64,000 nucleotides of DNA from Heterotrichella gracilis. Taxonomy: Eukaryota; Sar; Xanthophyceae; Tribonematales; Xanthonemataceae. Below the pieces are notes generated by a model that saw nothing but the letters and a program-made list of their open reading frames with translations, was not told where the DNA came from and did not search any database. This document shows positions 5,416 through 64,000 of the stretch, one piece after another (within the stretch, counting starts at the first letter, position 1; each line of letters starts with the position of its first letter). Both the position numbers and the translations under genes were made by a program. Where the stretch lies: the NCBI GenBank assembly GCA_032358255.1, contig JAULBX010009438.1, positions 45,734 through 109,733 on the forward strand, given 5' to 3'.

Positions 5416-8400
5416 ATGGCATCCACTCCAACCCACGGGTTCTACTTCAACAAGTGGTACTCGTTCGTGGCGTGCGCGTTCGTGCAATGCGCGGTGTCTG
5501 GCCTGTGCTACACCTTCAGCATATACTCCACTGACGTGAAGGAAGCCCTAGGGTATACCCAGGCACAGCTGCAGGGTATGGCTGCCCCCCTGCTTAACCC
5601 CAACTACCTGGCGTTCGTGCCGGGGCTGCTGTACGATGCGCTCAAGGGGAGGCACCTGGCCCCAAGGTAAGCCTCAGAAGGCAAAGTTCTTTGTGCGCTA
5701 CATACATGCATGTGGCGGGGGCCTAGGTTCAATACCCCAGTTGAAGCCCACACTCCACCAACCCTCCCATTCCACCCATGCCCCCTTAAATCCCTCTGAA
5801 CAACTACTACAGGCTAAGGCTGTACTGGCTGTAGGAACACTGCTCACCAATGCAAGGAATTGTTGGCTGTAGCTCCCTACAGCTTCGCAGCTGATGCAGA
5901 CCTATGCACGCATGTAGCTGTCACAGCCTTAGCTGGTTCCCAGTGGTTCACCCTTTACCTCCCCACACACACCTCACCAGCCCCTCTCTCCCTTGTCTAC
6001 CAGGCTGTGCGTGGCGATAGGCACCCTCCTCACCAGCGCCAGCAACTTTGGGCTGTGGCTGGTGGCCACCAAGCGCCTGGTGCTGTCCTACCACCAGGTG
6101 GTGGCGGTGTGCATGGCCTCCACAGCAGGACTCATTTTCACCGACACCGCGTGCATCGTCACAAGCGTGCGCAACTTCCCAAACGAGCGGGGGACGGTGG
6201 TGGGTGCGTGCGCAAACCCTACAACAACCCTCTTGCCCAGCTGTGTTTCTTGCAACCAGTGTGCACAATTTCTCGGCGATGGTGGGCACGTTCGGAAACC
6301 CTTACAGCGGGATGCAGAACCCCACAGCTATATGCAAAATTTTTGCAGCCAGGTGCAAGCATACCTGCTGCACAGCTGCGTGGCCAGTGAGGGCGACTTC
6401 TCAGCGTGCGAGGGATTGTGGTGGGTGCATGGCGCAAATCCTAAGCCTTAAACCATACCGGAGGCTGCACAGCTGGCAGGCAATGGTTGGCGCCTGCTGC
6501 GGCTCTGATACTGTCAAGCCATCACAATCACATTCTTTCACCACAACCCCACCCACCTGCGCACAATGCAGCCCCATGCAGTCCGCATCTGCAACCAGGT
6601 CGCCTGCATCCCTTCCCGAGAATGCATTTTGATGTGAGCGTGTTGGGGGTGGTGATGTAGTCAATCTGGTTGCAGGTGCGGCTCCTTGGGGCCGCATTGT
6701 GCACAAATGGGTGGGGGTATGCTGAAACATTGTGTTTGTAGCAACTAAAGGGTGTCCATTGCAGAGCTGAGCAGGCGCAAGTCATGTGCTGTATGCAATA
6801 TGATTCAATGCTCCTAAAGTGAAATTCAATCTAAACAGAGTTCAACCTGTGCTTGTTTTTAAAGTATGTTGGGCCACATACCAGCTGGTATGCAATGGTA
6901 GTTTTGCATTGTGTCGGTGTGGAGCAGATCCATTGTGAATCTCAATGTGCACGCTCAAGTTGGCCACAATGCATTGTGGTTGTGAAGCAACTTTCTGTTT
7001 CGCCTGTAGGTGTGATGAAAGCCTTCCTTGGCCTGTCTGTCAGGGTATGCATCCGCATATACTCAGCACCATTCCAGTTCAGGGGCGCAGGTATTCCTGC
7101 CCTTTCTGTACTCTACCCTCTCACAGTACAGCACTCCACCAATTGACAAGACGCTGAATGCTACAGCATGACACCAAACTAAACCACCGTGACCAACCCT
7201 TGACCGCAGGCGTGATGAAAGCCTTTCTGGGCCTCTCAGCCAGCGTGTGCATCAGCATCTACTCAGCGCTCTTCCAACCAAGGGCCCTGGATTTCCTGCT
7301 GTTTCTGTCCATTGCCCCCCTGGCGGTAGGCCTCCCCGCCCTGGTTTTCATAAACCAGGTCCCCTTCGTGCAGCGGTGTGAGTGGGAGGGGGGCAAGGGG
7401 GCGTACACAACAGGTGGGGGGTGGGGGTGGGGAAGGGGAGGAGGAGTGTGGCAAGTGGATGGAGGGCCAAGGGGGCGTACACAATGTGGGGGGTGGTCCA
7501 CAGGGTCTTGCTTCCTCTCATGTTACACAATCACTCATCATGGTCTGGCCTGCATGTACCTTTGGCTGTAAGCGTGTGGTGTGCAGGGCAGCGTGTGGTG
7601 TGAAAGGTTCGGGTGTTTGCCCTTCCCGCAAGCTTTCCGCAAGGGTCTTGCCCTTCCCTGGTTGCCCCGCGTTCCATTCTTGCCCCCCACACCCACCCCC
7701 CGCAACCCTACAGGGTCCCGCTTCCTCTCAGCCTACACAATCATCTCCCTCCTGGCACTGAATGTGACCCTGCATGCGGTGCTGGGGACAGCCATGGGGA
7801 TCCCGAAAACCCTCCACCAGGCTTTCCTGGGGGTGACCCTGGTGCTGCTGGGGGGGCTGGTGGTGGTGCCGGTGGGGTCTGGGGGGGTGGCGGCTGTCAA
7901 GGCGGTGGTGGAGGTGGATGCGGAGGTGGCTGGGGAGGGTGGTGGTGAGGGGATCAGGTGCGTATGCGTGTGTATGTGTCAGTTTTGATTCTTGGATGTG
8001 GGGATATACCAGTTTAGTATGGGCGCAGGAAGTAGGGTTTAGGGTTTTAAGGCTAGGGTTACATGCTGCATGCTGCACCACAGCCTCCATGTGACCTATC
8101 CTGCACCACCTGTTTCACCTACCACACGGTGTGTCCACACCATGCCCGTGCACGAATCAAACCATCCCACCAGCCACCGACCCCCCTCCCCCCTTCCTGC
8201 ACCACAGCACCCTCCAGGAGCCCCTCCTCACCCCCGCCCCACTCCTCCCGCCCCCTGCCCCCACCACCGCCACCACCGCCACCCCACCACCACCCCACCA
8301 CCGCAAGCTGCACCGGTCCCGAACAGTCCAGCTGGCGCTCAGCGGCATGCCGGACATGAGCCTCCCGCAGTGCCTGCAGGCAGTGGAGTGGTGGCTGCTG

Positions 8401-10676
8401 TTTTTTGTCTTTGGCGCGGGCACGGGCTGCAGCATCATGTTCGCCAACAACCTGGGTGAGTTGGTGGTGGTGGGTGGATGAGTGGGTGGGAGCAAAAATC
8501 CTACGTCCGGCATCCTCCCTATCCCAATACCCATCATTCATTGTTTTCAATCCATGGGCTGCAGCACCATGTTTGCCAAAAACCTGGGTGCGTGGGGTGT
8601 GGGGGTGTGGTGGGAGCAAAGAGAAGCCCCTGCCATCTCGCCTCCCAATTTAGCCATGCAAGATCTCGATGAGGGACGCGCTGCCGCTTGAATGTGTACA
8701 GGTTTCTGCAGTCCATGTCAACTTATAATCCACGTATGATCCACAACCCCCATGGTGTGCATGCCATTTTTTCCCAGTCCCCACCATGCATTTATAATCC
8801 CCCGCAGGTCAACTATCGCAATCCCTGGGAGGCGCGCATGACGGCCAGGACGTGTATGTGTGCCTCCTATCGGTGTCAAGTGCACTGGGGAGGCTGGCGA
8901 TGGGGTGGGGCCCCGAGAGGGCGCTGCATGCCAGGGGCACCCCCAGGTGGGCATGGGAACTGGGAATAGGGATGGCGGGAATTGGGGACTTGTGGGACCG
9001 GCTAGTAATCCACATCCCCTTTTGGGGTAGGAGGGGACTGGTGTGTGGGACAGGTAAATCACCATTACAAAGGGTGCGGTGATCCTCAAGTAGAGTTGGG
9101 GTTTGGGGTGTGTGCAGGGCGCACAAAGCATGGTGACACCTCTGTAAATTAAGGAAAAGAAATGGGATCCCCTTCCTCCTTTTCACAGCCTGCCTGAAAG
9201 GTGCCAGCCATCGATTCATTGCATTGATCGCAATTTAAATCGTGTTTAATGACCAATAATCACCTCCAAATACCCACAATCACCACTACCCACTAGTCAC
9301 CTCCAAACCTACAATGTTATCCCGCAGGTCCCCCTTCCTCTTGCTCACCTCTTGCCTCCAATTGCTTTCTGATCACCTCCGATCACTATCCAATCACCCA
9401 CGATCACCGCTGATCACCTCTGATCACCCCTTCTCTCGCAGGTCCCTCTTCCTCCTGCTCACCGCCTGCCTCACAGCCACCAATCAGCTCCTACTAGCGT
9501 TCGCCAAGCTGCCCGCCCTCTACCCTTGCGCCCTACTAGCCGGGGCCACCCTAGGTAAGGGCACATGAGGGAATGTCCAGCATTTGTACTTGTAAAACAC
9601 CATTCTCTGCAATGTCCCTGTCTTCTTACTCGGTTGCCAATTGTGACACCCGCAAGTGTTTTCGTATCGTTTTGTCTGCACACCCCAAGGGTTTTTGTCT
9701 TGCTGGTACCCACACGGGCCTCGGAGCTGTTTGGCCTCACGCACGCCCGCGTTCTGTACTTATTGAACAATTCAAGCAAGTTATTTTTTGGTGGGCCCTC
9801 CCAGGCTTCCATTTCTCCCTGGTCCCCACCCTGGCCTCGGAGCTGTTTGGCCTCACGCACTACGGGAGCAACTATGGGAGCCTGTGCATGGCGCCCACCT
9901 CCCTTGTCTTCCTCATGAGCACTCAGCTGGCAGCCAGGCTGTACACGTGGGTGGGCAAGGGGCATGGGGATCCCCGCGGGGTGTGCCTGGGACCCGACTG
10001 CTTCAGGTACGACCCCGCAATGTGAAAAATCAGGGGGTTGGATTCAATTGCGTTGGGGTCAATTTACAAAAGAAATGGAATCGAATTACCATCAGTATTT
10101 TAAACCCATACGACAGGCTGCTTCAGGTGCATCCCGGGGGTTGACATCGGCATTTGGATGTGTGTGGTGACGGAAGCATCGACGTCGAGTGTAAAGCAAC
10201 ACATGGTGCATTCCTGGTGTTCCACATGGCTGCACATGACAGTAACCCCCCGTTCACCCGATTTGCGGGTACAACATTCTGGTGCTGGCGGGGGTGAGGC
10301 TGGCTGCGTCTGGTGCAGTACCAAACCACACACGCATCCCCTGCACCGCACAGAACGAGGTTTTACTAGGGCACTGGCTGCCATTTACCTGCCATGGCGC
10401 CCAAAATAAATAAATAAATAAACAAATACTGCTTTGGCGCCCAAAACCCACAGGACAATGAACCCCCCCGTTTGTGAACGGTGAAACTGATTTGCTTTGG
10501 TATGCAGGTACACCTTTCTGGTCCTGGCGGGTGTGGAGGTGGCTGCCGCGGGTGCAGCGCTGGTGCTGTACCGCCGGACGCGCGCCCTGTACCGCACCGA
10601 GTACCGCCAGCTGCACAGATATGAGCAGGCAGTGGAGCACAGAGCGCAAGAGGGGGAGGCGGGGGGGGCACAATGA
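5416..10676 (+). CDS. Nodulin-like major facilitator superfamily transporter
   Basis: Nine exons keep phase throughout: 5416-5666, 6004-6203, 7210-7377, 7714-7957, 8208-8455, 8808-8946, 9442-9554, 9805-10006 and 10508-10676, giving 577 residues, a normal length for the family. The N-terminus has the nodulin-like pattern: KWYSFVACAFVQCAVSGLCY, then an early Tyr-Thr-rich membrane segment and GTLLTSASNFGLW. About twelve hydrophobic segments are visible, split by a Pro/Thr/His-rich central loop (start of exon 5). The second half has NLGQLSQSLG and a VCLLSVSSALGRLAMGW segment. Family members are membrane transporters; the substrate cannot be read from sequence. The C-terminus is charged and cytosolic-looking (YRRTRALYRTEY). 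Introns carry degenerate copies of exon ends, described separately. Confidence 0.88.
6245..6500 (+). repeat. Degenerate copies of transporter exon 2 end in intron 2
   Basis: The exon 2 end (6157-6203 and following intron bases) is echoed at about 6259-6306 and again at about 6383-6440, with GTGGGTGC/GTGGGCAC-type donor remnants followed by CAAACCC-like bases. The copies have indels and stop codons and are not coding. Confidence 0.6.
7009..7085 (+). repeat. Degenerate copy of transporter exon 3 start upstream of the real exon
   Basis: GTGTGATGAAAGCCTTCCTT at about 7010 mirrors GCGTGATGAAAGCCTTTCTG at 7210. The similarity runs for roughly 65 bases and includes an AG before the copy (GTAG). The real exon keeps the reading frame to the GTGAGT donor at 7378; the copy does not. 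Confidence 0.75.
10235..10370 (+). repeat. Degenerate copy of the last transporter exon inside intron 8
   Basis: The stretch from about 10245 (CCCGTTCACC then GCGGGTACAACATTCTGGTG) parallels 10470-10600 (CCCGTTTGTG then GCAGGTACACCTTTCTGGTC) with a comparable downstream Cys/Arg-rich coding-like run, but has indels. A third partial copy lies after the stop, at about 10802-10860. Confidence 0.65.
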
Positions 10677-16329: not shown

Positions 16330-17629
16330 CTTACTTGACGTATTTTCTTAGGCCACGGATTGTGTATGTAGTCCTTGTGCGGCCAATCACTGTCTATCGC
16401 TCGAGCAATCTCAGAAACGGCTGTCATGGGTTATTGGGAATGGCCCCCGGAATGGCCCCTCAGAAGCCCCAACGGGCGGAACGTTGCAAACGTACAGCCG
16501 TGTTCCTTATCCACTGAAGTTGAACTGTATTAGTTGTCCAGTTTATGGAAAATACAGTTCGCTGCATTGTTGCAATAGAGTGTCCACCGGCCTGTCTCCC
16601 GGGAAGGCTCTTCAAGACCCCACACCCTAACTTAGGGTTAACCTGGCAGGTTAACCCAATGCCCCGGGTGGACGGCAAGATCTTGGCAATGAAAAGCTGA
16701 CTGTGGTGGATTGCAAACGGATGACCAGGGCTGGAGCATAGGCTGGTAACTTGCTTACACTTAATTCTCGGAGGTATGCCTGGCAGCTGAACCAACGTGT
16801 CACACAAGTATAAATTGTCTTCTCAAAACACAATGCACTCCCGTTGGCCACAATTGGACTTGTAAAACTTGATGTACAGCACACCCACTGGTGACGCTGG
16901 AGAGCATATGACTTTCAAGCACTGTGGTGGTTCCAGCACCGTGTGTATCATCTGAATAGTCCCTGGTATACACCCAGTATAAAACTCCAACTCTGGACAG
17001 TGGGGTAGTGCAGGCAGCCAGTGCGCACCCTAAACCCTATACTCTTTATGACATACGCTTTGCGGCTCCCAATGGCTGGGCCTAGGTGCAGAACCGACTC
17101 AGGCGCCCACTGTGCACTGTGGTTGTGCCCTCCGTGGCCCCAAACCCCTTTCAATCGCTGTTCTATCAACCCCAGCTTAGTGATCGCTCTAGGAACTGCT
17201 CGCCAAGCTCCTCCCACTGCTCTCAAATATTGTACAACCCCATCAAATGCGGTCTGCACTTGATGGTACAAACCCCAGCTGGCGCGTGTCCTGCAGCAGC
17301 GCCTCGGTGAAGAAACCCCCAGAGATTGCCCCCCCACAGAATGACGCTCTTTTGGGAGCACGAGGTGGCGCCTGCGCTCTGCAGCACCTACTCCCCTTCC
17401 CCTGTCACTAACCCCTTGACGGTCATGTCACAATTGCGCGCCCGATGTATGGCTGCAGCCTCAGCTGGCGCGTGTCCTGCAGCAGCGTCTTGATGAAGAA
17501 GCCCGTCTCCTCGGGGTTTGCCACCTAGCAGTAGCTCCACATACGCGTGTGCGCTCTGCAGCACCTGCAGCTCCCCTCATCCAGCCACCACTTTGGCCTG
17601 GTGATCACAGTCCAACCCAGCCGCCCCCC
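16330..17629. other. Non-coding stretch downstream of ISN1
   Basis: It holds the ISN1 3' flank with two degenerate copies of the ISN1 last exon (17278-17345 and 17443-17530). No separate gene is supported. Confidence 0.45.
17278..17530 (-). repeat. Two copies of the ISN1 last exon beyond its stop codon
   Basis: The segment CTGGCGCGTGTCCTGCAGCA of the real exon (about 17656) recurs at about 17278 and 17464. The nearer copy also includes the GATGTATGGCTGCAGCC that overlaps the ISN1 stop region. The copies are not needed for the protein. Confidence 0.8.
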
Positions 17630-20600
17630 TCACTCGATGTATGGCTGCAGCCGTAGCTGGCGCGTGTCCTGCAGCAGCGTCTTGATGAAGAAGCCGGTCT
17701 CCTCGGGGTTCGCCACCCACAGGATGGAGCAGCAGTCGCGCGTGGCCTTGTCGTTGCCGCTCACGGTGAAGCGGTCGCCCACGTGCATCACCTGTAGGGA
17801 GTTTTGGGGGTGAGTGTGTGGGCGTACTGACTGAGCCGCCGTGTGGTGTCTTGGTCGCACAAAAGAGCATGAGCTGCAGCGAGCGCTGTGCATCAAGACT
17901 GGTGTGTCAGCCAAGTTCCCTGTCCTCGTAGCATTTGTTGCCCCGAATTCCGCGCCTCCACCCAACCCGACCCTGCGCCTCCCACAGCCCCAGCCCCGCG
18001 CCCTCAACTTTGCCCACAACCCCAGGAACGCCACCTCATTTCCCATGAACCCCTAAGACCAAACCCAAAACCCTACTCCTTGCCTGCACCTCCCTTCCCC
18101 AGAACCCCAGGAAGGCCATACGTGCCTCCAACCCAATGCTCTTGTTGCCCACGTCCACAAAACCATCACCTCCCACCGCCCACACCCTACCCCCGCACTT
18201 CGTTTAGCCAAACCCTAAAACCTAACCGTTGCACACGTTCCTCCTTCCCCCTGAACCCCAGGAACGCCATGAGCGCCTCCAACCCAATGCCCTTGCTAAA
18301 CCCTAAGACCAAACCCTAAACCCTACGCCTTGCGCGCACCTCCTTCCCCCTGAACCCCAGGAACGCCATGAGCGCCTCCAGGCCGATGCTCTTGTTGCCC
18401 ACATCCACAAACACGTCGTTGCCGCCGTTGAAGGCGCAGTAGGGCATGGCGGCGTCCACCAGCTGCAGCTGCGCCGTGATGGCAATCTCCTCAAGCACCT
18501 CGTACACGGTGGAGACGGTGGGGATGACGCCCACCGCCCGCTCCTTGCGCAGCAGCTGCAAAGGGTTTCAGGACGCTCCATCAGGTTGATTATGTACAAT
18601 CAAAATTCTGCTACAGCTATTATCACTGTTAATCCATTTATTTATTAGGGATATACATCTGGAGATATATTTTGCCTTCCACCCACCCACCACCCACCCA
18701 CATACCCACAAACACCCCCCCACCCACCTGCACAGGCACCCGCAGCACGTTTGCCGCACCCAGCGGCAGCGACTGCGCCACATCCAGCAACAATTGTACA
18801 TGACCATCCAGCCACGAGCGCATGAGGGCACCCTGCCCTCCACCTGTTACCCATATATACATACTACCACCCTTTCCATCCTCCACCTCAACCCCTCCAC
18901 CCACCTGCACCGGCACCCGCAGCCTGTTAGCCGCATCCAGCAGCAGCGACTGCGCCTCATCCAGCAGTGCCTGTATGTGCTCGTCCTTCCATGAGCGCAT
19001 GAGGGGGCTCTTCCACTCATCGTCGGGCACAAACTCCAGGCTGCACTCGGGCCACGTGGCGCGCAGCAGGTAGTTGCACTCGCCGCCCATCACGTGGAAC
19101 CTGGGCAAGGGTTAGAGTTTAAGGTTAAGAGTCTAGGATTTGCCCACACGTCATGCGGAGCAGGTAGTTGCACTATCCCCCCACCGTCGCGTTGAAACTG
19201 GGCAAGGGTCAAATTTAGGGTTCGAGGTAAGGGTTTAGGGTTTGCCTGCAATAAGGCAGCTTGCAAACGCAGCATTCCTTCTGTTGTAGCAAGTTACTGG
19301 ATTTTGTACTTTATGCCTGACTAACTCCCAAATCCCTATCCTCAAGAACACCCCACATGACACACGAGCATGGCACGCGCGCATGGGTGATGCTGGGACC
19401 TATAAAACCCCAAACCCTAAAACCTACACATCCACCCATGCGCCCCACCTGTCGATGATGTGCTTGGGAAGGCGCAGGTCCCTGAAGGCAGCCAGCAGGC
19501 CCTGGAACCGCGCCTCAACCCCCCCGCCTCGCCTGGGTACCCCGCCGCGGTCACAACCCTTAAACCCCAAACCCTAGCGAATGCTACCACATGCGGCAGC
19601 CAAACCCTTAACCCCATCGACATGTCGCACCTGTCTGTGATGTGCTTTGGCAGGCGCAGGTCCCTGAAGGCAGCCAGCAGGCCCCGGAACCGCGCCTCAA
19701 ACCGGCTCGCCTCCCCCGGGTACCCCGCCGCGGTCACGATCGCCACATGCACGTTGCTGCGCATGAGGCTCACAATGTGCTGGATCATCTCCGAGTCCTG
19801 CTCGATGTGCGCGCCATCGGCGTACAGGGTGCCGTCGGCGTCGAAGGTGACGAGCTTGAGGTGGCGGGCGCTGGCGTGCAGCTGCGCCAGGTTGAGGATG
19901 TGGCGCATCTCGGCAAAGTTGGGGGGCACGTAATTGCGCCGCGACAGCGCAAAGAACTCGTCGTACTCCTGCAAAGGGTTTCACAAGTCTATTCAATAAT
20001 TTTTCTGATTATTAGATGAAAGGGATTGTGGATGCAACCGGCCGTCATGCATTCCAGCCGTACAGCCCGCTCAGTCAAGGATAATGAGGTTGTGATAAGA
20101 GAGGGCCAGGTTGAGGATATGGCGCATCTCGGCGAAGTTGGGGGGCACGTAGTTTTGCCGGGGCAGCGCGAAGGATTCGCTGTACTCCTGGGAGGGGTTT
20201 CACGAGGGTTTGGTTGGGTACGCCCTTGACTACGGTGCAGGATTGTGGATGCATTGCAATGAAGCTGATGATCATATGGACAGGTACGAATATGCATGCG
20301 TAATGCTGAACGTAAGTGCAATCTGGCTTCCAATCAGCAGCACAGTCAGCACTAGTGAACGCATTCCAGCACACAGCCAGATTCGCAGGCAGAATTACAC
20401 ATGGGATGCGCCACATGGCTCTGCCTGGCAATGGTCATACCTGGAATGCGTCCACCAGCTTGAGTGGCGTGAAGAAGGACCCTAGGTTAGGGACCAGGCG
20501 GGACAGGCGGCTGCGCCTCGGGTCCCTCCTGTGCTCGTTGATCCACTTTTCCACCTTCTGCATCACTTCAAGCGAAGTGTGCGTGTGGTGCATCTGGACA

Positions 20601-25800: not shown

Positions 25801-26802
25801 GGGGTGAAGAAGCAGTCGGTGCAGGTGGGTGGGGCTGGGGATGTGGCCTAGGGTGCAGGGTTGAAGGTTTTCATTGGCGAGTTGGGGACGTTGTTGAGGT
25901 GTGAGGTGCAGGCTTGGGCGGCTGGATAAAATGTTTGGCCTACCGTATATTTGTTGCCATGTAGAATCTGCACAGCAAGGCCCGGCTAGGGTTTCAGGGT
26001 TGCAGGATTCTCACCCGTGTTTCACCCCCATAGATCATTCACCACAAATTTAGCTGCAAGCAGCCCCTACCCTCCCCGGCCATGGCATGACCAAGGTGGG
26101 TGCATGCCTCTAGGGTCAAGTATGTAGGGTTTAGGGTTTTCACCCGTGCCCCACCGCCCCGCAGATCATCCACCGCAAGTTTGGGCGCAAGAAGCCCCTA
26201 CCTTACCAGGTGATGGACAAGTTCCCTGAGAACCCTAAGGACCAGCAGCGGGTGGTGGCCACGTTCTGCATCGGCAAGGCGTGGCAGTACAAGGACTGGG
26301 CGACGTTCAAGGTGAGGGGAGGAAACACATGGGTGGTGGGTGAGGTGGTGCAATTCTTGGAGGGAATGTCGGGGAGGGGGGGGGACTCCAGGGACCAGCA
26401 GAGGGTTTTGGTAGGGTTTCGGCGTGGCAGTACAAGGACTGAGAGAGGAAACGGGGATTTAGGGGGAGGAGTCTGGGGATAGTTGTATGCCATGCCTTGG
26501 AATATCATCTGCTGTACCCTGCGCCCCTCCCCGCGTACCCTTTTACGACCCCTCATACCCCACCCCACCCCCACCCCTTGCAGGGTGCCGACCAGGGCGA
26601 CCTGGTTGACCTGTTCCAGCACGTGCTGGGTGTGTACCTGCACTACCACGACGAGGCCGTGCCCCCCGCGGTCAAGTCATGGAACGTGCGCGTCATGCCG
26701 CTGCACCGCAACGACCGACACCGCGACGCCACGGTGGTGCACGACTTTTACAAGCTGCTCGACGCGCACTTGGCCACCACCAAGTCGACCCTGGCGTACT
26801 GA
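22810..26802 (+). CDS. CDC73: CDC73/parafibromin, Paf1 complex subunit
   Basis: Nine exons in phase: 22810-23076, 23392-23469, 23833-23896, 24213-24337, 24643-24744, 25128-25393, 25599-25824, 26165-26311 and 26584-26802, giving 497 residues, close to other CDC73 proteins. The Paf1 complex travels with RNA polymerase II and promotes histone modification and elongation. The N-terminus MDPLVLLREFTINKQLDD with YTLETLLHFIKN matches the conserved CDC73 N-terminal domain. A Lys/Arg patch (AKKRAR) may be a nuclear signal. The middle, about residues 230-320, is Pro/Gly/Ser-rich. The C-terminal Ras-like domain starts near IPIIVVPAALSSRVNMFNV, includes KFPENPKDQQRVVATF, and ends with a helix containing VVHDFYKLLDAH before TGA. 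Confidence 0.93.
26030..26100 (+). repeat. Copy of CDC73 exon 8 start in intron 7
   Basis: TAGATCATTCACCACAAATT here parallels CAGATCATCCACCGCAAGTT at 26162. The copy keeps the AG and about 50 bases of exon-like sequence but ends with an in-frame stop (TGA). Confidence 0.8.
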
Positions 26803-28013: not shown

Positions 28014-35874
<7,861 letters not shown>

Positions 35875-38305: not shown

Positions 38306-41952
<3,647 letters not shown>

Positions 41953-49000: not shown

Positions 49001-52000
49001 CCCTTTGCTGGCGGCTCCCCTACCATGCTCACCTTCCACCCGAAGTTCTCTTCCACGCTGCTGGCGGCATCGGGCAACGGCATGTTCACTGTGGCGGATG
49101 TGCACCAGACGGGGTATGGCACCACGTGCAAGGTAAGGGTGGTGGCAGTGTCTGGGGTTTGGATAGGGTGTGATGAGGGTGTGAGTACGTACAGAGGGGA
49201 GAAGGTGTCGCTTGGGTGTTGGGGTTCAAGCTATGGGTTATGGCACTACCTGCACCCTAGGGAAGGGTGTCGCTTCCCTTCCCCTGAAGGCAAATGCCCA
49301 TGGGGTGGACCAGGTTTGCCGCAGCATCCGCAAAACCCCTGCATAGGGTTCTTACCCCCCTTCTCCCCCTGCAGGTTGAGTGCGAGGGTGACCAGCTGCT
49401 TGCCTGGCTTCCCTTACCCTTGCCTCACTTTAGGGTTTCCCTGCATGCCTACACCCTAAACCCTAAACCCTAACTGCAGGTTGAGTGCGAGGGCGACCAG
49501 CTGCTTGCCTGCCACCTGTCATCCACCGGCGAGGCCATCGCGTTGGGTGGCGCTGCCGGCTACCTGCACCTGTGGGCAAGCACACGGGAGCCGAGGGTCA
49601 ATTTGTACACGCAGGTGCGGTGGCATACAAAATAGTAAAGCATAAAATCCCAACCATAAAAGAATAAACAACAGCAAACCATAAAACCAAACCATGAAGG
49701 CATGTTGCACGTATGATGTTGATATGCAAAGTGACTGCATAACAGAGTATCGACGCAAAGCCGGTCGCAGTTGGTTGATGGTACCATGTGCAGGCGGAAC
49801 TGCCTTTTTTTAAGTATATGTGGTTCCTCCCCTCTTTCACCTACTCACCCCCTTCTCCCCCTTGCAGTCCCAGCTCACCCTCCCCACACCCCCTCAACCC
49901 ACCTGGGCCCTGGGCGAGGACGACCCCCCCTCCCTGGCCCCCCAATACTACCCCCCTGAGGGAGCCAAGCCCCTATCAGACATGGAAACGCATGCGCTGG
50001 CGGCCACTGGGCTTCCGCCACGTGTCATCGACCCAACGCTGCTGGAGGGGCTCAGGCAGGTAGGGTGTTAGGGTGTTTTGGCGGGGTACGAGGGTTTCTT
50101 GGGTATGTGTGTTAGGGTTTTCCTGTCTCACCCTAAGTATACTTACTGCCACATATGGTAGTATGTTATGGTCCAGGCTCGTCATGTTCATTCCATGCAG
50201 CTGGGTACAGGACAGCGATGCAAAAGGCCCGGTGCACTACGGGAAGCCTTGCGGCAGTGCGTCCTGATCCCTCCCTTCCCCTCCCTGCAGGTTTTATACC
50301 TGTTACCCTATATCAGGGTTTCACTGCCTGCATCAAGATCTGCTGATTACTCCCTTCCCACTCTGCAGGTTGACTTTGTAGGGTATGTCCAGAACCCTAG
50401 CTACCGGAGAGGTGGCATGAAGGGCGAGGGTGCCTGCCTGGTAGCCCGCATGCGCAACATGCGGGTGGCACCTCTAGAGGGGAAGGAGGAAAGGTGGGTG
50501 GGTGATGGGGGAGGTCAAACGGAGGGGGAAGAGTCATGTGCCACAGACAGTCCCTTTGGCCCACCATCACATACACCACCGCCAAAACCCCGCACACCAC
50601 AACCGCCATCACATACACCGGGCGCAGTCCCCTGTCCCCTATTGGCACAGTCCCCCCACCACACATCATCACCACCACCCAGTCACACTTATTACATGTG
50701 CACCAGCACCTACATTACCATCACTCACACATATTCTCCCTGCAGCGCCAACCATGACGCAGCCCGAAAGAAGTCGCTTGCCGGGCGATTTGGGGTCCCA
50801 TCACGCTACCGGCGCCACAAAATCAAGCAGCAAACGGGGGCCAAATTCGAGGAGTTTGACTTCACGTATTATAATCGCACCAGGTTTGCGGGACTGGAGA
50901 ATGACATTGCGAACTGCTACGCCAATGCGCTCCTGCAGGCCATGTATTTCACCCCGCAGCTGTGGTGAGAAGACAACCCTTGCAGACCCTAGAAAACCTT
51001 AACCTTGACCTTGAAAGTGAACTGGTACGCCAAGGCTTGCTAAACCCTTTGATTGCTAGGGTCCTCTAAAAAAAGCCGCACAGGCAATATACCCCCATCT
51101 TGTGGTGAGTAGGAAACCCTAACGAAGGCAGTAAGGTCCATTTGAGGCTGAAGGTAGGTAAGTAGGGTTTCCTTCACAGAATGAGATGCAAGATGTTTAC
51201 CACCTGCAGGGCAGCCATTTTGACCTGCCGTCCAGAACCATGGACACCCATTTATTACCTAGGTTGGGGTATGATACCCCCAAATACTCACCGTTACACC
51301 CCTCCCCCTTGCAGCGCCGCCATGCTTACCCACCGCCCCGACCCAGACTCCGAGTTCAGCCTGTTGGACGAGCTGGCGTTCCTGTTCAGGATACTGCACA
51401 CGGCGCATGGCCAGGCCTGCCAGGTGAGTGGACGGCTGTGTAGATCGCTTAGGTGGTGGTGATGTGTCAGTGCCCTCAAATATTTCATAAGATCTTTCTC
51501 GGGATCTTTCGAGGCCAGGAAGCTTGGCCGCGCACCAGCCCATGATAAAAAACCCAAATACCTGAACTCGGCATGCCTGCGTTTGCCGGTGCCTCTCGCA
51601 TGCTGCGGTGCCTGCGCCAGTGCCCCCAGGGAAAATATGACCCCCTACAATCCCGCAACCCTAAACCTTCTAAATTCATCAATTCCTAGTACTTTAACTT
51701 CCTACAATGTGCAGGCCACCAACATGCTGCGGTGCCTGCGCCAGAGCCGGCAGGGCAGCGCGCTGGGGCTGATAGAGAGCGAGGACCAGGGCAGGGGGGG
51801 GGACATAGAGGTGGAGACGGGAAGGGAAAAATCCATATCCCGGCGCATCCAGAGCCTGTCCCGGTTCCTGCTGGAGCAGCTGCACAAGGAGGCGGCTGCG
51901 CAGGGTACGGCTAGGGTTTGATTAGGGTTTGGTTTCAAACTCAAGAGTACGCAATGATTGGGGTATGTTTAGCTATTTTCAGGTAGGGAAGGGGTGGGGT

Positions 52001-55000
52001 TTTGATAGGATAGGTGTTGTTATCTTGTCACTGTTGCACGAGGACTGGGTAGAATTCGGTTAGCACCCCCCCCCCCACCCCCACCCCAACCCCTTCTGAC
52101 CCCCTCCACCCCAGGCTCCCCCTCCATCATCAGTGCTGTGTTTGGCATGCGCGTGGTGCTGCGCATGGAGACGCTGGGCAGGGTGCAGGCGCCGCCACAA
52201 ACAAGGGAGAGCGAGGTGTTCCAGGTGGGAGGAATACCCTATGCTAGGGTTTTAAGGTGCATAATGTTGTCCTGAAACAGGGGCTCAAGGAGTCGTCGCA
52301 GACAAGGGGGAGCGAGGTGTTCCAGGTGGGATATGCCCTGGTGGAGGTTCAAAGGAAGAAAATATATGAAGGCTTTACCTTGTAATATCTATGTCGCCCA
52401 TTTGCCAACATTTAGTTTTTTGGGGGTCGTGAAAAAGTGCCGGTGGCCCGAATGTATCGTCCTCACCGCTCACACCAATTCCCCGCTCGTCGCAGATTGA
52501 CCTCCAGTACCCCCCTGCCAAGGAGCGGCCCCCACCCACCCACCTGGGGGCACTGGTGGCCCTCAAGAAGATCGAGGCGCAAAAGCCGGATCCCGAGAAA
52601 AAGGGGCCCAAGTCCCCACCGCCGCCGCGGCCCGCGTTCTGCGAAATTCTGGCCAAAAGCATCAAGGCCAGTAGTGAGATGCGGGCCTGGTTCAGCGATG
52701 CGGTGGGGTACCAGCCAGTGCGCCAGGTCAGGATGCCACTGAGCCTACCCCAGGTGCGTGGATTACATACCCTGCTAGGGTTTGAGCATAAGGGGTTAGA
52801 GGGGTTTGGGTGATGGTGCCGTAATTCGGTTCATTAAGGGTTGGAATCCGGGCGTGGTTCGGCGAGTTGGGGACATGCTTGCAATCACAATCACTTCCAT
52901 GATCGCTCCCCATCTCGATTACTTCAATCCAACTGCAGGTGATGGTGATCAGCTGCGGCCTCCAGGACAGGGGGGACATGGCATGGTGGCAGCCCCTGCC
53001 CATTCCCTCGCCTGAAACTGATTCCACCGCCCCCCCTGAGGCGCGCGCACTGGATTTCAGTGAAGCGGGGGTGCCAGGGGGAAAAGGGGATGCGGGTGGA
53101 GGGGGAGAGGGGGAGGGGGTGGTGGTGAGGCCCTGGCTGCCTCTTGCGGTGGTGGTGGAATGCGATGCTGAGCGATCTGAGGTGAGTGTGGATGGTTTGG
53201 GACCCTCACTTAGGGTTTTATGGGATTGCATGGGAGTATCATGCGGGGCGATTGGATTCAGGCGATGGGTAGGGTTCATGAAATTGCATGGGAACCATCT
53301 CTGAACATCTCCCAGTGCTCCACAGCTTTCATAATGCACATTTATGTATTATAAAACAATTAAAACTATTTTTTTCAATAAATTATCAATTAAAGGTTGA
53401 TAAAATCAACCCCATGTGATGTGGGTTGATAGGTTATGGATCATACTGCTGTTGCACATTGGCAACACTCACGTTTGCTGTAGGATACCTGTAGAACGTG
53501 TGTCATACGGACCAGTCTTTTGGGCGTGAAGTCTCTTTTGTGTGGTATTTCTTGCAATGCTGAGTCAACAGATAAAAATGCAGCTATTTTACCAGTAACT
53601 CATGCCGTTCAATCGAATGCAGGTGATTGTCAAAGAGGTCTCTGTGGATAGCCTAGCCACCACCTCCACCTCAACCACCACCACCGAGGGTTCTGCTACC
53701 GCCCAAAACCCTAGCAAGGGATCCGCCAAGGTTGCCCAAAACCCTAGCAAGGGCTCCGTCAAAGCCTTGGAAAAGCCTAGCAAGGGCTCCACCAAGGCTG
53801 CAGAAAACCCTAGCAAGGGTGCCGTGGGGGCCTCGGAAGGCCCTTACCCCCCCTGCCGCGCTGGTTACCAGCTGACTGGCATGGTGGCGTACATGCTCCA
53901 GGAGCATCCTGGTCAAGGGGGGAAAGGGGGGAAGGATGTGGAGGATGGACACCTGGTGGCACTCATCAAGGTTGGGGGGGGGGAAATTGAAAACAAAACA
54001 GAATACTGCTTAAAATGAAACTAATGCCAAGGGCATGCGTAAGAGTGCGGATTATATTGATGATTTGTTGCTTTGCGTTTTTCCAGACATCGCCCCTTAG
54101 CCTCACGCCAACCCCATCTACCTCTCGTTATTGCCCTACTGAAAACCCTAATAAAAACCTCCCCCAAGGTGGATGGCCTGCGTTACTGTTTACCCTACAA
54201 CCCTGACAGAAACCCTGCCCCCTTCTTCAGGTGGACCCAGCCTATCAGGACCCCGAGCTGGGTGTGCTTCAGACAGCGCCCCTCAACCTCACGCCTCCCT
54301 CGGCGCTCCTCACAGCGGGGTCGCTAGGGTTGACCATACCCTCCTCCGGGGTTCCGGCAGCGTCCAGCATACCCTCCACCGGAGTTTCGCTAGGGTCCAG
54401 CGTACCCGCCACCCCCACCGGGGCCCTGGCATCGGCAGCTGCAGCAGTGGCCAATCAGGGGGCAGCACAGGCAGTGGAGGCGGCCAATGAGAGCGCACCA
54501 CCCGCTTCATCAGCCACCCAGGTGCCGCCACCTGGCGGTGTGAAAATCCCCACAGCACCGTCGCAGCCAGGGATCCCCACTACACCCCTGCCTGCCAAGA
54601 AAACCCTCCCAGGCCCCGGGCTGGGGGGCCAGCGGTCGCTGTCGGGGGGATTGTCGTCCAGTTTCATCACCCCCGGGAGGGGGCTGGGGACCGGCAGCGG
54701 GGATTGGCTGCTCGTGAACGACTTTTGCATTGTGCCTGTGGATGAGGAGGAGGTTGGTCAGCTGTTTGGTGGGCTCAAGGTGCCCTGCCTGCTCATGTAC
54801 AGCAAGGTGGGTGGAAAAGGGGGTAGATGAGTGCATTAAGACTGAGGTGGAAATGAGTATGGAATCATGCTTCTCCGAATCATGGTAACAAAGAAAATGC
54901 TCGATCAACCTCGCACAGGCACTTGGTAGGGTGTTGCAAACGCGAGATTGAAATATATGATGCACAATCCGCAATGACACAGCCCCTTAATCCATTCCCC

Positions 55001-56871
55001 ACCCACCGCAGGTGGACCCCCCACCCACCCCGCCGCCACCGCCACTCCCCACCCCCAAGGCCTTCCTGGATCCCCGCTCCTTCTACCGCCTGTGCAGCGC
55101 ACCACCCTTGCAAGGGGCCCTGTCGCGCATCCGCCGCACATTTAAGCCCCTGGACCCCGAGACAGAAGGGCCTAAATCGGGCACCCTGGTGGCGCTGGAT
55201 GCGGAATTTGTGGCGCTGGGCCCCCCTGAGAAGTCCATGCAGAGGTGGGTAGGGTGGTGGGGCCCGGTGGGGTGGGTGCTGGTGGCGACGGAGGGGACCT
55301 TGTGCCTTGGGTGTGGTGCGCAGATGGCCTTTGTGCTATGAGTTATAGCCTATAACCCCTTTAGGGTCTTTACGTTCAGGATGGTGGTGTGTACAAGAGG
55401 GCTCGAGTTGGGGTGGCGTGGGGCGAGGGGCATAATGGCGGCACCTCTTTTCCAGGAATACAGCTAATTCAATTAGGACCAGCTCTTCTATTATGACACT
55501 GCTTTTGCCACTGCACCGTGAATCCTTCCCCAAAAATGCACCACATTTGCCTCAGGGGCGTGGAGGTGGATATGCGCCCCTCCCGCCTGGGCCTGGCTCG
55601 TGTGAGTGTGGTGCGTGGCGTGGGGCCTAATGCGGACACCACTTTTCCAAAATAACATCCATTCCCAAATTCAATTAGGACCAAGTCTACTCCGCATTTG
55701 CCATTGCATCGTGATTCATCCCCTGAAAATATGCGCGTCATTTCTCCCAGGGGCGTCGAGGTGGACGTGCGCCCCTCCCGCCTGGGCCTGGCGCGCGTGA
55801 GTGTGGTGCGTGGCGAGGGGCCTAACGCCGGCACCCCCTGCATCGACGACTACATCAAGACGGTGGAGCCTGTGTATGACTACCTCACGAAGTTCAGTGG
55901 CCTGGTGGCTGGGGATTTGGACCCTACGCAGGTGAGGGAAACCCTAAAGTAGGGTATGACCTGGCCCCTATGGTATTCTTGGGTAGGGGCTGAATGAGGC
56001 ACACCACCTGGACTGTTGACCGGCGTCCTAACACGACTAATCGGTTGGTCATCAATATGTGCAGCATGCTCAATAGGACGTAGTGGTAGGCTGGGAAGCC
56101 TTGCAAGCATGCAAGTAATCACAATACAAGTGGATTGTAAGAAAAATATTTTTGAGTTTTAATTGCAACTGTACACCCCGTGCTGACCACCCCACCCCCC
56201 ACCTCCCCCAAGTCGCCCCACTACCTGACCACCCTCAAGCGCGCTTACACCAAGCTGCGACACCTGGTGGACTGCGGGGCCAGGCTGGTGGGACACGGGC
56301 TAAAGAAGGACTTCAGGATCATAAACATCGTGGTGCCGCCGGAGCAGGTGAGGGTTCCTTTAGGGTTTTCTGTAGGCGTTCAAGGTAGGGTTTTGTATGT
56401 CCCATGCCCAACATGCCACCACACCGTGAACACACACTCTCGCAGTGTCGCATATGCCATGCCACCATGCCACCACAAAGTCCGGCATCCTCTCCCGCAT
56501 ACCATTGTGATCACCCCTTGTGCGCTATGCCCTTGCGCCATGTCATTGCACCCCCGAACCCACCCCATTCCCCGCAGGTGATCGACACCGTGGACCTGTT
56601 CCACCTGCGCCGCCAACGCAAGCTGTCCCTGCGCTTCCTGGCCTCCTACCTCCTGGGCCTCAACATCCAGCAGGGAGGGGGGCACGATAGTATCGAGGAC
56701 GCGCGCACCGCCCTGCGCCTGTATGACCTGTACCGCCAGCTGGAGGCTGATGGGAAGGTGGAGGAGAAGCTGCAGGAGGTGTACCGGTGGGGGCGCCAGC
56801 ACGGGTGGGAGCCGGTGGTGTGGAAGGACGGGGCGCCGCACCCAGCGCCGCAGGCGGCGCCCGGGCATTGA
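46020..56871 (+). CDS. PAN2: PAN2, catalytic subunit of the PAN2-PAN3 poly(A) nuclease
   Basis: Twenty-two exons in phase, 46020-46097 to 56578-56871, give 1397 residues, somewhat longer than most PAN2. PAN2-PAN3 trims poly(A) tails in the cytoplasm. The WD40 domain (about 1-330) has blades such as [17 protein letters not shown] and [17 protein letters not shown] linker for PAN3 follows (about 330-440). The USP-like domain starts near [16 protein letters not shown]. The C-terminal DEDD exonuclease shows LDAEF (about 1180), KKDF (about 1286) and HDSIED (about 1340). The domain is interrupted by Ser/Ala/Pro/Gly-rich inserts encoded by exons 17 and 18, including repeated NPSKG. Exon 1 (26 residues) is short and was chosen from a GCG|GTACGG donor. 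The exon 15 donor could be 52728 instead of 52753. Confidence 0.93.
48470..48575 (+). repeat. Copy of PAN2 exon 5 end in intron 5
   Basis: GGGCTACAAGGTGGGGTATC at about 48496 mirrors GGGTACAAGGTGGAGCACGC at 48360; the following GGTGGGGATG and CCCTAGCAAGGGTTTG of the intron recur as GGCTGGGGAC and CCCTAGGGAGGGTTTG. Confidence 0.75.
49374..49420 (+). repeat. Copy of PAN2 exon 8 start upstream of it
   Basis: CAGGTTGAGTGCGAGGGTGA here is almost identical to CAGGTTGAGTGCGAGGGCGA at 49477; both include the acceptor. Divergence begins after CTTGCCTG. Confidence 0.88.
52262..52332 (+). repeat. Copy of PAN2 exon 14 end in intron 14
   Basis: GAGCGAGGTGTTCCAGGTGG occurs at the exon end (about 52209) and again at about 52310, donor included, preceded by a diverged CACAAACAAGG/CAGACAAGGG stretch. 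Confidence 0.88.
53704..53820 (+). repeat. Four near-palindromic repeats inside PAN2 exon 17
   Basis: AACCCTAGCAAGGG and variants recur about every 33 bases (near 53707, 53740, 53775 and 53806) and encode repeated NPSKG/KPSKG peptides in frame. The same motif is found in introns (for example 48412) and in the KDM4 Gln-rich exon. Confidence 0.85.
55395..55835 (+). repeat. Three tandem units around PAN2 exon 20
   Basis: The real exon start (55751) and about 100 bases before it are copied at about 55453-55637, and a shorter third copy starts near 55395. Shared blocks include CAATTAGGACCA, GCCCCTCCCGCCTGGGCCTG and GTGTGGTGCGTGGCG. The exon itself contains GTGAGTGTGG, a cryptic donor. Confidence 0.88.
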
Positions 56872-59767: not shown

Positions 59768-61758
59768 CTACCCCTCCTCCTCCTCCTCCCACAGCTTCTC
59801 CAGCCAGGTGTAGGTGGTCTCCCAGGACGTGAACTGCCCCGTGCGCAGCATGTAGCCCGTCTGGTGCACGCTGCCCCCAAAGGTGCCCACTGTGGCTTGG
59901 GGGAACTGGTGGTTGCTGGTGCTCATGGCATAGGCGACGATGTCCCCCAGTATTGCGGGGTCCAGCTGGCGCAGCTTCTTCTTGTCGGCAGCGGGGATGC
60001 TGGGGAAGTAGGTGAAGAGATTCTGCGCAGGTGGATAGGGTATCTATAGAAAATAGGCTTAATACCTTCTATAATTTTTTCTTTTTTCAATCTCAGTTTC
60101 AGGAGCGTGTTCACATACTGCTTCTGGGCAGTTGGGAAGGGTATTACAGGCTGGAAATGGCGGGGTTCAAATGCCAAGATTCAATGATGCATAACAGTGC
60201 ACCGTGCACCGGTTTGTACACCCTAGCCTACATCCTAAAACCCTAGACCCACCTGTATGCAGTGCGCCATGAGCCGCGTCATCTTGAACTGGTTGGCCTT
60301 GGCTGCATAATCCAGCAGGTTGTTGCTGTTCAGCAGGCGGTTGAGGCGGCACTCCTTGTCGTAAAACAGGTCCAGCTTGGATACCGTACCAGTGACGTCG
60401 AAGAAATCCGCAATAGCGGCCAGGCGCTGCGCCTCAGCCAGCTGCATGTGCACACAGCTTTGTGAAAACAGGCACAATCTTGACGGAGGCGCATGTTGGG
60501 ATCCCTGGCAATTGTTTTCATTTGGTGATCATTATGGTTGTTGATTTTGCGCCTCAGCCAGCTGCATGTGCACACAAGGTTTGAACTGTGGGGGATTTTA
60601 CAAGAAGCGCATGTGGGCATTTCCTGGAAAGAATACCCTGTGATCGCGTGCGTGTATGGAGGGCACAAGGGAAAGAAAAACATACAGAATACAGGGGATT
60701 TTTGCCCCTTCATTTTTAATGTAATCCGCAATGGCAGCCAGGCGCTGCGCCTCGGCCAGCTGCACATGCGGGGACAGGGGGTTGAATAGTGGTGTATAAG
60801 ATTGTGTGGCGTGTGTGTGTGTGATTTACTTCATGCAGCTGGGGGGGTAGTTCATGTCACGAGAACGAGTGGCGGTGGGAAGGGGCGATAGGGTTGGATA
60901 AGTAGCGGGAGAGGGATGGCCTCCTGGGTAAAAGAGGTGGTGGGAGACTCACGTTCTTTATGACTGGCTTGTCTGGGCCTCCGTACATGTGCTGCAGCAG
61001 GAGCACCATGTCATCGTACTTGATCTTGTTGCCGGTGGATTTATCCAGGTCGATGCGTATGGTCCCGTCTGTGGCGCTGCCCCTCACAGAGGTCAACAGG
61101 GAGCATAGCACTCCAGAGAAGCAAGACAGCACCTGCAGGCCATGGCCAGGGTTTAGGGTTTAGGGTTTAGAATTAAGGGTCAAACTTGACAGCACCTGCC
61201 CAAAGGCTCACCTAAACCCTGAACCCCAAATGAGGAAAGCAAGACAGCACCTGCAGACCATGGCTAGGATTTAGGGTTTAGGGTTTTTGCATGACAGCAC
61301 CTGGGCAATGGGGGTAGGCAAGGCTAGGGCCACATGGGCTGCCATAAGCCCTGAACCCTAAAGTGAGGTCAGAAGGGCTCACAGCACCTCGAGAGAAGCA
61401 AGCGGGGCCCACGGCTAGAACCACTTTGGCTGACCTGACCTCACAGTACCTCTGTACTGTGAGGCAATCAATGGTGTGCCAGGACCAGACTGCTTGGCGC
61501 CGCAATTGCAAAGCTCACTGCTCTCCTGTTGCACTGCTAAATGCACGTAACTAACTAACAGATCACCTGGCTGTGGGCAGGGATGGTTTGGCCCTCGATG
61601 GTCAGCTCCACATCCACACTCTCACCCAGGCTGGCAAAGTTGCTCCGTGTGCGTTGCAGGGTCACCGACTTTTCCAGGTAAGGGGGCAGCTCCACAGCAA
61701 AGGCTTGCGCGCCAGACACCAACGGGCTTCGGGCTCGGCTGCTGTTGGACTGTGCCAT
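59768..61758 (-). CDS. BTB/POZ-domain protein, minus-strand member
   Basis: Four exons in phase: 61567-61758, 60953-61132, 60253-60441 and 59768-60022, giving 271 residues. The BTB fold is clear: VDVELTIEGQTIPAHSQVLSC, then FSGVLCSLLTSV, MVLLLQHMYGG and a helix starting LAEAQRLAAIADFFDV. The C-terminal half (NLLDYAAKANQFKMTRLMAH and LRQLDPAILGDIVAYAM) resembles a BACK-type helical region. It ends in an acidic EEEEEG tail. Likely a Cullin-3 adaptor or scaffold; the target is unknown. Start chosen at MAQSNSSRA, the first Met in a suitable context; an upstream Met at 61794 is possible. Introns and the 3' flank carry exon copies. Confidence 0.82.
60540..60775 (-). repeat. Two copies of BTB exon 3 start in intron 2
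   Basis: GCGCCTCAGCCAGCTGCATG of the real junction (about 60429) recurs at about 60548, and again as GCGCCTCGGCCAGCTGCACA at 60747, the latter with the upstream AATCCGCAATGGCAGCCAGG block also copied. Confidence 0.88.
61149..61170. repeat. Interstitial telomere-type repeat in an intron
   Basis: Three TTTAGGG units sit just upstream of a BTB exon on its own strand. Further arrays occur at 31467-31490, 34823-34842, 36420-36445, 49453-49473 and 63074-63099. They occur in both orientations. Confidence 0.9.
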
Positions 61759-62778: not shown

Positions 62779-63712
62779 GAACAGCGTGGGAGCTGACAAG
62801 GCGATGCAGGAGCTTAAGGGCGCAATACACGGTAACCGTTCGAAACCTTGAACCCTTAACCGTAACCCTACTCCTTACCCTGCTGCATCACCCCCCACCC
62901 ATCTTAGGAACAGTGTGGGTGCTGACCATACTATTCTCCATACCCGGTCTGATTGGTTTGACCCAGTTTTTTCCTGAATATTGCTTGCCAATACTTTAGC
63001 TTCTTGATAATCGCTCTGGGTCAAAGGGTTATGACCCCATCCGTGCTAGCAGCTGCCGCTGAAAAGCGCCTTTCCTAAACCCTAAACCCTAAACCCTAAG
63101 CGAGGTGATGGTGTGCGCAGGCGCGCTGCAGGCTGCCAACCGGTGTGTGGGTGATGTGTGTGCGGCTTGCCTGGGCATGGCAGGGGTGGACTGCACTGCG
63201 GATGAGGAGGGGATGAGAGTGCTCGTGGCACAGTGGCTGCCGCAGGAGGTGGGTGGGGTGGGGTGAGTGTTCATCGCCGCAGGGAGGCATTATAGTGAGG
63301 CCGAGGAGGGAATGAGGGACATGGGAGCCACAATGGTTGCGGAAGGAAGGGGGGTGGGGGTGGAGGTGGGGGTGGGGGTGGGGGTCATCATGGCAGGGGT
63401 GGGTGGCGCTGCAACATGGAGGGGGTGAGTGCGACAGTGGCGCAATGGTTGGCGCAGGGTGTGGCGTGCGGGGTGAGGGGGAAACATAGCGGCAGGGGTT
63501 TATGATTGTCATATAAAGAAATATCTCCGCCAAATCCCTGCATCCTGCACTGCATAGCTGGACCTAACCACGCACCCTGCATCATGCACCCTCAACCCTA
63601 AACATCTGAACCCATCCGCAGGCGATGGTGTCCGTGCACAACGACGCGGTGGTTGCGCTGGCGTGCGGGACAGGAGGGGATCCCAACGGCTGCGTGGTGA
63701 TTGCAGGGACAG
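62779..63712 (+). CDS. N-acetylglucosamine kinase-like protein (both ends incomplete)
   Basis: Three exons in phase: 62779-62831, 63121-63248 and 63622-63712, about 90 residues. The family (BadF/BadG/NAGK, sugar-kinase actin-like fold) phosphorylates N-acetylglucosamine. Visible blocks are NSVGADKAMQEL, the LGMAGVD loop with WLPQE, and NDAVVALACGTGGDPNG followed by GCVVIAGTG, a phosphate-binding glycine loop with the expected spacing. The 5' exon with the first ATP-binding loop and the 3' exons beyond 64000 are missing. Degenerate copies of the exon edges are at about 62900-62930, 63275-63320 and 63430-63470. Confidence 0.75.
63074..63099. repeat. Interstitial CCCTAAA array before a NAGK exon
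   Basis: Almost four CCCTAAA units end 21 bases before the acceptor of the 63121 exon. Confidence 0.9.
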
Positions 63713-63927: not shown

Positions 63928-64000
63928 ACACCCACACCCACACCCACACCCACACCCACACCCACACCCACACCCACACCCACACCCACACCCACACCCA
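63928..64000. repeat. Hexanucleotide satellite reaching the window edge
   Basis: Perfect CACACC/CCCACA units continue for at least 70 bases and run off the right end, so the full length is unknown. It lies in a NAGK-like intron. Confidence 0.95.

Follow-up and report, generated by a model that had tools for sequence, protein, structure and literature searches.

Tandem duplication of genomic DNA over an intron-exon boundary created a new intron in the potato RdRp gene (PMC4974935), and intron gain from duplicated exon segments that hold AGGT is a known model for which 188 events have been listed (PMC3443670). Short direct repeats of 4-30 bp, pairing both borders of an intron, have been described near splice sites (PMC11782384). 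Vaughn and Bennetzen (2014, via PMC7407515) ascribed tandem duplications in rice to patch-mediated double-strand breaks. In mammals, interstitial telomeric tracts have been ascribed to telomerase at double-strand breaks, and at a few horse loci a direct target duplication with a telomeric tract has been ascribed to staggered breaks (PMC7215372). The subject of this work is a 64,000-nucleotide stretch of DNA from Heterotrichella gracilis (contig JAULBX010009438.1, positions 45,734 to 109,733; hereafter the window), the introns of which carry degenerate copies, or echoes, of the adjacent exon edge.

We propose that frequent short tandem duplications across splice junctions lengthen these introns, with the exon half of each duplication staying readable, and we hold this with a probability of about 0.82; for the duplications themselves we infer an origin in break repair. 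The potato case is similar in that the unit covers the intron end and exon start, and the potato gene also holds an 83-bp intronic duplication, but there an intron was gained and exon sequence added in one case (PMC4974935), whereas here 26 of 66 introns appear to be affected, by lengthening, and no signature of gain is in excess. The AGGT model (PMC3443670) likewise involves a tandem exon copy with splice sites; here, in contrast, there is no in-register excess. The repeats of PMC11782384 are also direct and placed around intron borders, whereas ours are exon matches of 31-114 bp inside the intron. The rice duplications are local, direct and tens to hundreds of bp long (PMC7407515), but those described here lie at splice junctions and have telomere-like tracts at some joints. 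Unlike the mammalian interstitial telomeric sequences (PMC7215372), the tracts of the window number about one per kb and accompany intronic duplications of ~75-400 bp. The kind of event is therefore already known, from single cases of junction-crossing duplication; what is new is how densely such events occur, their part in lengthening introns and their link with telomere-like tracts. Searches of open-access full text brought up no paper on introns widely lengthened by duplications that span a junction.

Exon-edge echoes in introns

Ten gene models were used, namely the transporter, ISN1, CDC73, KDM4-like, GAPDH, VPS25, PAN2, BTB (+), BTB (-) and F-box genes, giving 66 introns with 132 exon edges, a median length of 315.5 nt and a total of 23001 nt. 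All results refer to this single 64-kb window and to gene models built from the DNA sequence by one gene finder. When each exon edge (160 nt) was locally aligned to its own intron, 27 of the 132 edges matched at a score of at least 22, compared with 0 of 132 reverse complements. Among control edges, 1 of 1056 sampled from other genes and 1 of 988 taken from non-adjacent positions in the same gene did so. In the full 66x66 matrix, a score of at least 20 was reached by 28 of the 132 adjacent pairs and by 36 of the 8580 mismatched ones, and 5000 permutations of the edge-intron pairing at score 20 gave a mean of 0.98 and a maximum of 6. The 36 off-diagonal matches comprise 13 to the other edge of a flanking exon, 11 in which an edge of one of two repeat-rich transporter exons takes part, and 12 of other kinds. 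The 28 echoes are on the same strand by construction of the test, and the reverse-complement control gave none at score 20. Exon-edge echoes in these introns are thus real. The sequence-only reading had held that introns of this DNA carry copies of the adjacent exon edge, and had named as contrary evidence a lack of excess over randomised exon-intron pairs, or echoes matching distant exons equally often; given the excess of adjacent over mismatched pairs, its own test does not refute it.

At least one echo is present in 26 of the 66 introns (about 4 in 10), two of which have two echoes. The exon-matching part is 31-114 nt long; 11 echoes lie on the donor side and 17 on the acceptor side. Identity ranges from 0.75 to 0.97, which bears out the view that the copies are of mixed age. 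The donor-side echo of transporter intron 3 is rich in G and might merely reflect low complexity. Echo-bearing introns number 7 of 9 in the transporter, 4 of 4 in ISN1, 3 of 8 in CDC73, 3 of 5 in KDM4, 1 of 9 in GAPDH, 6 of 19 in PAN2 and 2 of 3 in BTB (-), with none in VPS25 (0 of 5, the edge scoring 18.0), BTB (+) (0 of 1) or F-box (0 of 3). The earlier statement that all nine genes carry echoes therefore holds for transporter, ISN1, CDC73, KDM4, GAPDH, PAN2 and BTB (-), and overstates the case for VPS25 and BTB (+) at the threshold used; the ninth gene, NAGK, was not identified, its frames holding stops, and the models do not include it. Copies beyond the model ends, after the last modelled ISN1 exon and in the KDM4 C-terminal array, were not counted.

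The window has a GC content of ~55% and a strong codon bias (GC content at third codon positions 0.86, from 712 seed codons), and its genes were modelled with GT(GC)-AG introns by a custom-written gene finder; taken with the (TTTAGGG)n-like tracts and the gene content, these features would point to a Chlamydomonas-like green alga. A Pfam search was run on nine of the ten models, the second BTB gene (57.8-58.8 kb) lying outside it, and backed all nine: a nodulin-like transporter, ISN1, CDC73 (with both Pfam domains matched), a JmjC protein (the "KDM4" of the sequence-only reading), GAPDH, ESCRT-II (VPS25), PAN2, BTB and F-box. The catalytic part of GAPDH aligns to a solved structure without gaps over residues 2-332 (PDB alignment), and ISN1 and PAN2 align to PDB homologues along 328 residues and, with gaps, 595 residues, respectively. 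Five echo-like segments that the gene finder had called exons were left out of the intron list (ISN1 20107-20187, 19449-19532 and 18728-18772; PAN2 47082-47135 and 52281-52325), as were zero-length exons, antisense models, the part of KDM4 beyond 31455, the first two exons of PAN2 and those 5' and 3' exons that were uncertain. Homologue comparisons covered four of the five segments: removal of the ISN1 calls agrees with the alignments, which run across 20107-20187 without it, and removal of PAN2 47082-47135 agrees with 9qtu, though not clearly with 6r5k. The models may err outside the homology-checked parts, above all in the later exons of PAN2 and the middle ones of CDC73. Since GAPDH and ISN1, which are homology-checked along most of their length, have echoes at 6 of 26 edges, the result does not depend on weak models alone. 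Searches of the window for RNA families and tRNAs found none, and one scan each with an ISN1 exon against genome contigs and a PAN2 exon against viral contigs turned up no relatives.

Junction-spanning duplications and intron length

A tandem origin of an echo implies that the intron half of its unit was duplicated as well. Compared with random intron pieces from other genes, the intron half of the unit is homologous at p<0.05 in 13 of 28 echoes, with a Fisher combined p of 9.5e-19. Repeat pairs scoring at least 20 across the whole window, with telomere-like tracts masked, were direct in 57 cases and inverted in 2 at separations of 40-500 bp, and direct in 1 and inverted in 0 at 500-1000 bp, multi-copy arrays contributing several pairs to these counts. 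The 57 direct pairs fall into exon-intron (31), intron-intron (9), other-other (11), exon-other (5) and exon-exon (1) classes. For the 28 echoes the duplication units measure 74-393 bp (median 176.5). In the best preserved case, PAN2 intron 17, the two copies form a 194-bp alignment with 154 of 185 positions identical and lie 1 base apart. Some duplications have been repeated: ISN1 intron 4 holds three copies, as does the region beyond the last modelled exon of that gene, and the KDM4 C-terminus is a further example. These observations fit direct tandem duplications, each across one splice junction, as the source of the echoes, and they support the proposal of local serial duplication over such junctions. 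Because the intron half was duplicated too, exon edges need not be special targets and may be merely the half that selection keeps readable. The sign of introners or mobile introns, one sequence in many unrelated introns, was not seen within the window, where distant pairs are few and the telomere-like tract is the sole sequence found in many introns.

Had both copies been coding, far smaller differences would be expected at codon positions 1 and 2. Between the exon and intron copies, mismatches at positions 1, 2 and 3 were 0.140, 0.127 and 0.235, and the values of 0.13-0.14 at the first two positions indicate an intron copy without coding constraint. The intron copy thus appears to drift freely with the exon copy held. 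This is difficult to reconcile with echoes being alternative or mutually exclusive exons under selection, an explanation that would account for the several echoes called exons by the gene finder, for the 11 of 28 whose aligned part lacks a frameshift or stop, and for the PAN2 intron 1 segment, which can largely be aligned as protein to 6r5k. However, that same segment, read as exon, is an insertion relative to 9qtu, so that the two alignments leave its exon status less sure, ISN1 aligns continuously to homologues without its echoes, and the duplicate splice sites are usable in frame without a stop in only 2 of 28 cases; we regard alternative exons as very improbable. Duplicate splice dinucleotides are retained in 7 of the 11 copies on the donor side and 12 of the 17 on the acceptor side, and as only 2 of 28 keep an open frame, the cell would have to ignore these sites or degrade their products.

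Our proposed mechanism is as follows. Short tandem duplications with units of ~75-400 bp have occurred frequently here, and many cross one splice junction. According to the gene models, where the unit covers a donor the first donor would still be used and the copied exon end would become intronic; where it covers an acceptor, the last acceptor would still be used and the copied exon start would become intronic. In either case the mRNA would be unaltered and the intron longer by one unit. Selection on one of its two copies would keep the exon half recognisable, the intron half decaying on both sides. With one dose of decay against two, the intron half is hidden first, which would explain why a plain tandem duplication looks like an exon-edge echo. 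Splicing would make introns tolerant of duplications, and those wholly inside exons would be removed, in which case the rarity of exon-exon pairs (1 of 57) is as expected.

In line with the sequence-only reading, introns with more echoes are longer: their medians are 273, 354 and 415 nt with no, one and two echoes, respectively (rho 0.45, p 2e-4). This difference is partly built in, because longer introns give more room for matches. The summed units come to 4841 bp, or up to ~21% of the 23001 intron bases if each unit is assumed to have been added once. The reading had also held that introns arise in this way. In the Rogers model, introns are born by tandem duplication of AGGT-holding exon segments, and the echoes would be remnants of such births; the model is established elsewhere (PMC3443670), and GT or AG stands at the equivalent site in 19 of 28 copies. 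Birth should leave an intron start that matches the downstream exon and an intron end that matches the upstream exon, in register. This signature is not in excess among 65 introns (p = 0.40; 1 of 65 at the 99th percentile of controls), although very old births could have decayed, and the unit is shorter than the intron in 28 of 28 cases. We consider birth a very improbable source of the echoes, and the lack of a birth signature makes them evidence for the lengthening of existing introns and not for their origin. About 0.2 duplications per exon edge are visible, at a mean divergence of ~13% at codon positions 1 and 2 between copies. By a rough estimate, which is not model-computed and ignores undetected old events, an intron would at such density gain about its own length within ~1-2 neutral substitutions per site, so that deletions must balance the gain.

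Telomere-like tracts and possible break repair

The window contains 60 (TTTAGGG)n-like tracts of 14-49 bp (59 once merged), or ~1 per kb, of which 35192-35229, 43343-43391 and 63072-63102 are examples; five Markov simulations gave none or one per strand. No tract has its midpoint in a modelled exon, and the number counted as intronic is 31, 34 or 35 depending on how intron edges are defined. At the end of the window, 63926-64000 is a perfect (CCACAC)n array of 12.5 units. Both this array and the number of tracts would be natural if the window lay near a chromosome end, the tracts and duplications then being a local subtelomeric oddity. We think this rather improbable, as the tracts run in both directions about equally (28 and 32) and lie among the conserved genes GAPDH, CDC73, PAN2 and VPS25.

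The tracts are associated with the duplications. Repeats at the same distance on both flanks were found for 9 of 34 intronic tracts, as against 56 of the 1347 intron positions drawn at random (p 1.3e-5), and a repeat starting no more than 6 nt from the tract for 12 of 34 and 161 of 1347 (p 5e-4); among all tracts the corresponding counts are 10 of 59 and 16 of 59. The unit minus the tract measures 54-84 bp in 14 of 18 tracts. Tracts at duplication joints were found in CDC73 intron 3, KDM4 intron 4, ISN1 intron 2, BTB (-) intron 1 and the KDM4 C-terminus. The VPS25 intron 5 tandem pair, which holds telomere-like tracts, spans the acceptor and 33 exon bases (exon 43127-43196). This association suggests staggered-break repair, perhaps with telomerase, and the telomerase-at-breaks reading of the mammalian tracts would fit those of the window. 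The duplications may arise when widely staggered breaks or paired nicks are filled in and their ends joined. Telomerase may sometimes extend an end by a few TTTAGGG units beforehand, which would leave a short tract at the joint. A bolder version, in which telomerase in this algal lineage routinely caps staggered breaks before they are re-joined, leaving a short tract between copies of 55-85 bp or longer, and in which this repair, with one copy hidden by splicing, is a chief cause of intron growth and accounts for why introns of such algae are unusually long, seems to us unlikely.

Along with the built-in part of the length difference, several points weigh against our reading. Fifteen of the 28 echoes lack significant intron-side homology, which decay explains but non-tandem copying would too, for example if template switching pasted an exon piece at a distance within the intron. 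Yet the combined intron-side signal, the restriction of the copies to the same strand and their own intron, and the near-complete abutting unit in PAN2 intron 17 argue for tandem units, and we judge template switching to be improbable. The joints have decayed and give no readable break chemistry. At 5 of 29 joints a tract is found no more than 4 nt away, where 1.4 would be expected (p 0.011), but this test depends on its threshold, seven other settings giving p values from 0.02 to 0.12, and one of the five cases was entered manually. For the full set of 59 tracts the excess of flank repeats is weaker than for the intronic ones (17 of 59 at score 20, compared with 73 of 545; p 0.016 by rank test). 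Finally, part of the tract counts are non-independent, since a duplication copies the tract along with its unit.

A role for the tracts as splice signals, with G-type tracts by donors and C-type by acceptors, was considered and rejected. The 16 G-type tracts have a median intron position of 0.37 and the 19 C-type tracts one of 0.67, a loose tendency only, and many C-type tracts lie near donors.

Coordinates, other repeats and significance

Table 1. Echoes, related copies and telomere-like tracts by gene. Identity is given as identical/aligned positions; D, distance between copies in bp.
Feature	Position	Strand	Counterpart or content	Identity	D	Remarks
Transporter intron 1	5819..5874	+	exon start 6004-6060	42/56		
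Transporter intron 2	7012..7118	+	exon start 7212-7317	81/106	200	
Transporter intron 3, donor side	7446..7484	+	7376-7410	32/35		among weakest
Transporter intron 3	7504..7592	+	exon start 7714-7792	63/77		8 gaps
Transporter intron 5	8553..8605	+	exon end 8421-8473	44/53		
Transporter intron 6	9328..9358	+	exon start 9442-9472	27/31		
Transporter intron 7	9698..9744	+	exon start 9814-9860	42/47		
Transporter intron 8	10269..10354	+	exon start 10508-10600	67/82		4 gaps
ISN1 intron 1	20105..20187	-	exon start 19886-19968	71/83	219	
ISN1 intron 2, donor side	19449..19554	-	upstream exon end 19631-19737	96/106	182	
ISN1 intron 2 joint	19558..19577	-	tract at donor-side duplication			
ISN1 intron 2	19147..19196	-	downstream exon start 19053-19099	38/47		intron side above 300/300 random pieces
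ISN1 intron 3	18728..18840	-	exon end 18905-19018	89/113	177	
ISN1 intron 4	18090..18161	-	exon end 18340-18411	61/72	250	third copy 18240-18295
ISN1, between exon end and first copy	18296..18329	-	tract			both flanks repeat at 99 bp
ISN1 last modelled exon (17634-17791), around its end	17257..17717	-	three copies			not among the 28
CDC73 intron 3	23947..23989	+	exon end 23858-23896	34/39	93	
CDC73 intron 3 joint	23927..23947	+	tract			
CDC73 intron 7	26034..26085	+	exon start 26165-26216	40/52		intron side above 300/300 random pieces
CDC73 intron 8	26385..26446	+	exon end 26232-26303	50/62		
KDM4-like intron 2	29300..29362	+	exon start 29693-29759	51/63	393	
KDM4-like intron 4	30493..30541	+	exon part 30407-30453	39/47		
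KDM4-like intron 4 joint	30471..30495	+	tract			begins at donor
KDM4-like intron 5	30946..31004	+	exon end 30802-30870	49/58		3 gaps
KDM4-like C-terminal array	35136..35694	+	exon end and several copies, telomere-like tracts between			not among the 28
KDM4-like C-terminal array	35192-35229, 35398-35433, 35595-35630	+	tracts			
GAPDH intron 7	39507..39604	-	exon start 39339-39428	68/90		intron side above 300/300 random pieces
VPS25 intron 5	43164..43404	-	tandem pair 43164-43381, unit 109 bp, with tracts			edge 18.0, not among the 28
PAN2 intron 1	47091..47135	+	exon end 46910-46954	38/45		
PAN2 intron 5	49375..49406	+	exon start 49480-49511	31/32		highest identity
PAN2 intron 10	51599..51631	+	exon start 51723-51755	30/33		
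PAN2 intron 12	52278..52325	+	exon end 52179-52224	38/46		
PAN2 intron 15	54070..54109	+	exon part 54257-54295	31/39		lowest score
PAN2 intron 17, upstream copy	55447..55640	+	intron end, acceptor and exon start			195-bp tandem unit, near-complete
PAN2 intron 17, downstream copy	55642..55835	+	modelled acceptor and exon start			
BTB (-) intron 2	60723..60759	-	exon start 60405-60441	34/37		
BTB (-) intron 1	61365..61402	-	exon start 61089-61125	31/37		
BTB (-) intron 1 joint	61345-61363	-	tract			

Other repeats were seen in the window. Two direct copies of ~0.9-1 kb, 13195-14095 and 15087-16069, lie 1.9 kb apart, are 70% identical and have similar predicted peptides; they are perhaps a decayed tandem gene or gene part. 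Tandem repeats at 31807-31910 (unit 27 bp) and 53701-53819 (33 bp) lie inside predicted KDM4-like and PAN2 exons, 33319-33396 is a tandem array of 19-bp units on GTATAC/TATACGC motifs, and 12-mers of the ATGCATGC type are frequent on both strands throughout the window.

Intron growth is commonly attributed to transposons or goes unexplained. In six species of the Chlamydomonas-Volvox group, introns are reported to be conspicuously long and to lack the usual short peak, the driver being left open and called likely ancient (PMC8226300). The duplications described here give a concrete, testable route by which introns can lengthen. Furthermore, the exon half of each duplication serves as a built-in clock and reporter, which makes the rate of the process measurable in any genome from one assembly. 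Should the link between telomere tracts and joints be confirmed, introns would in addition preserve a history of breaks repaired by telomerase.

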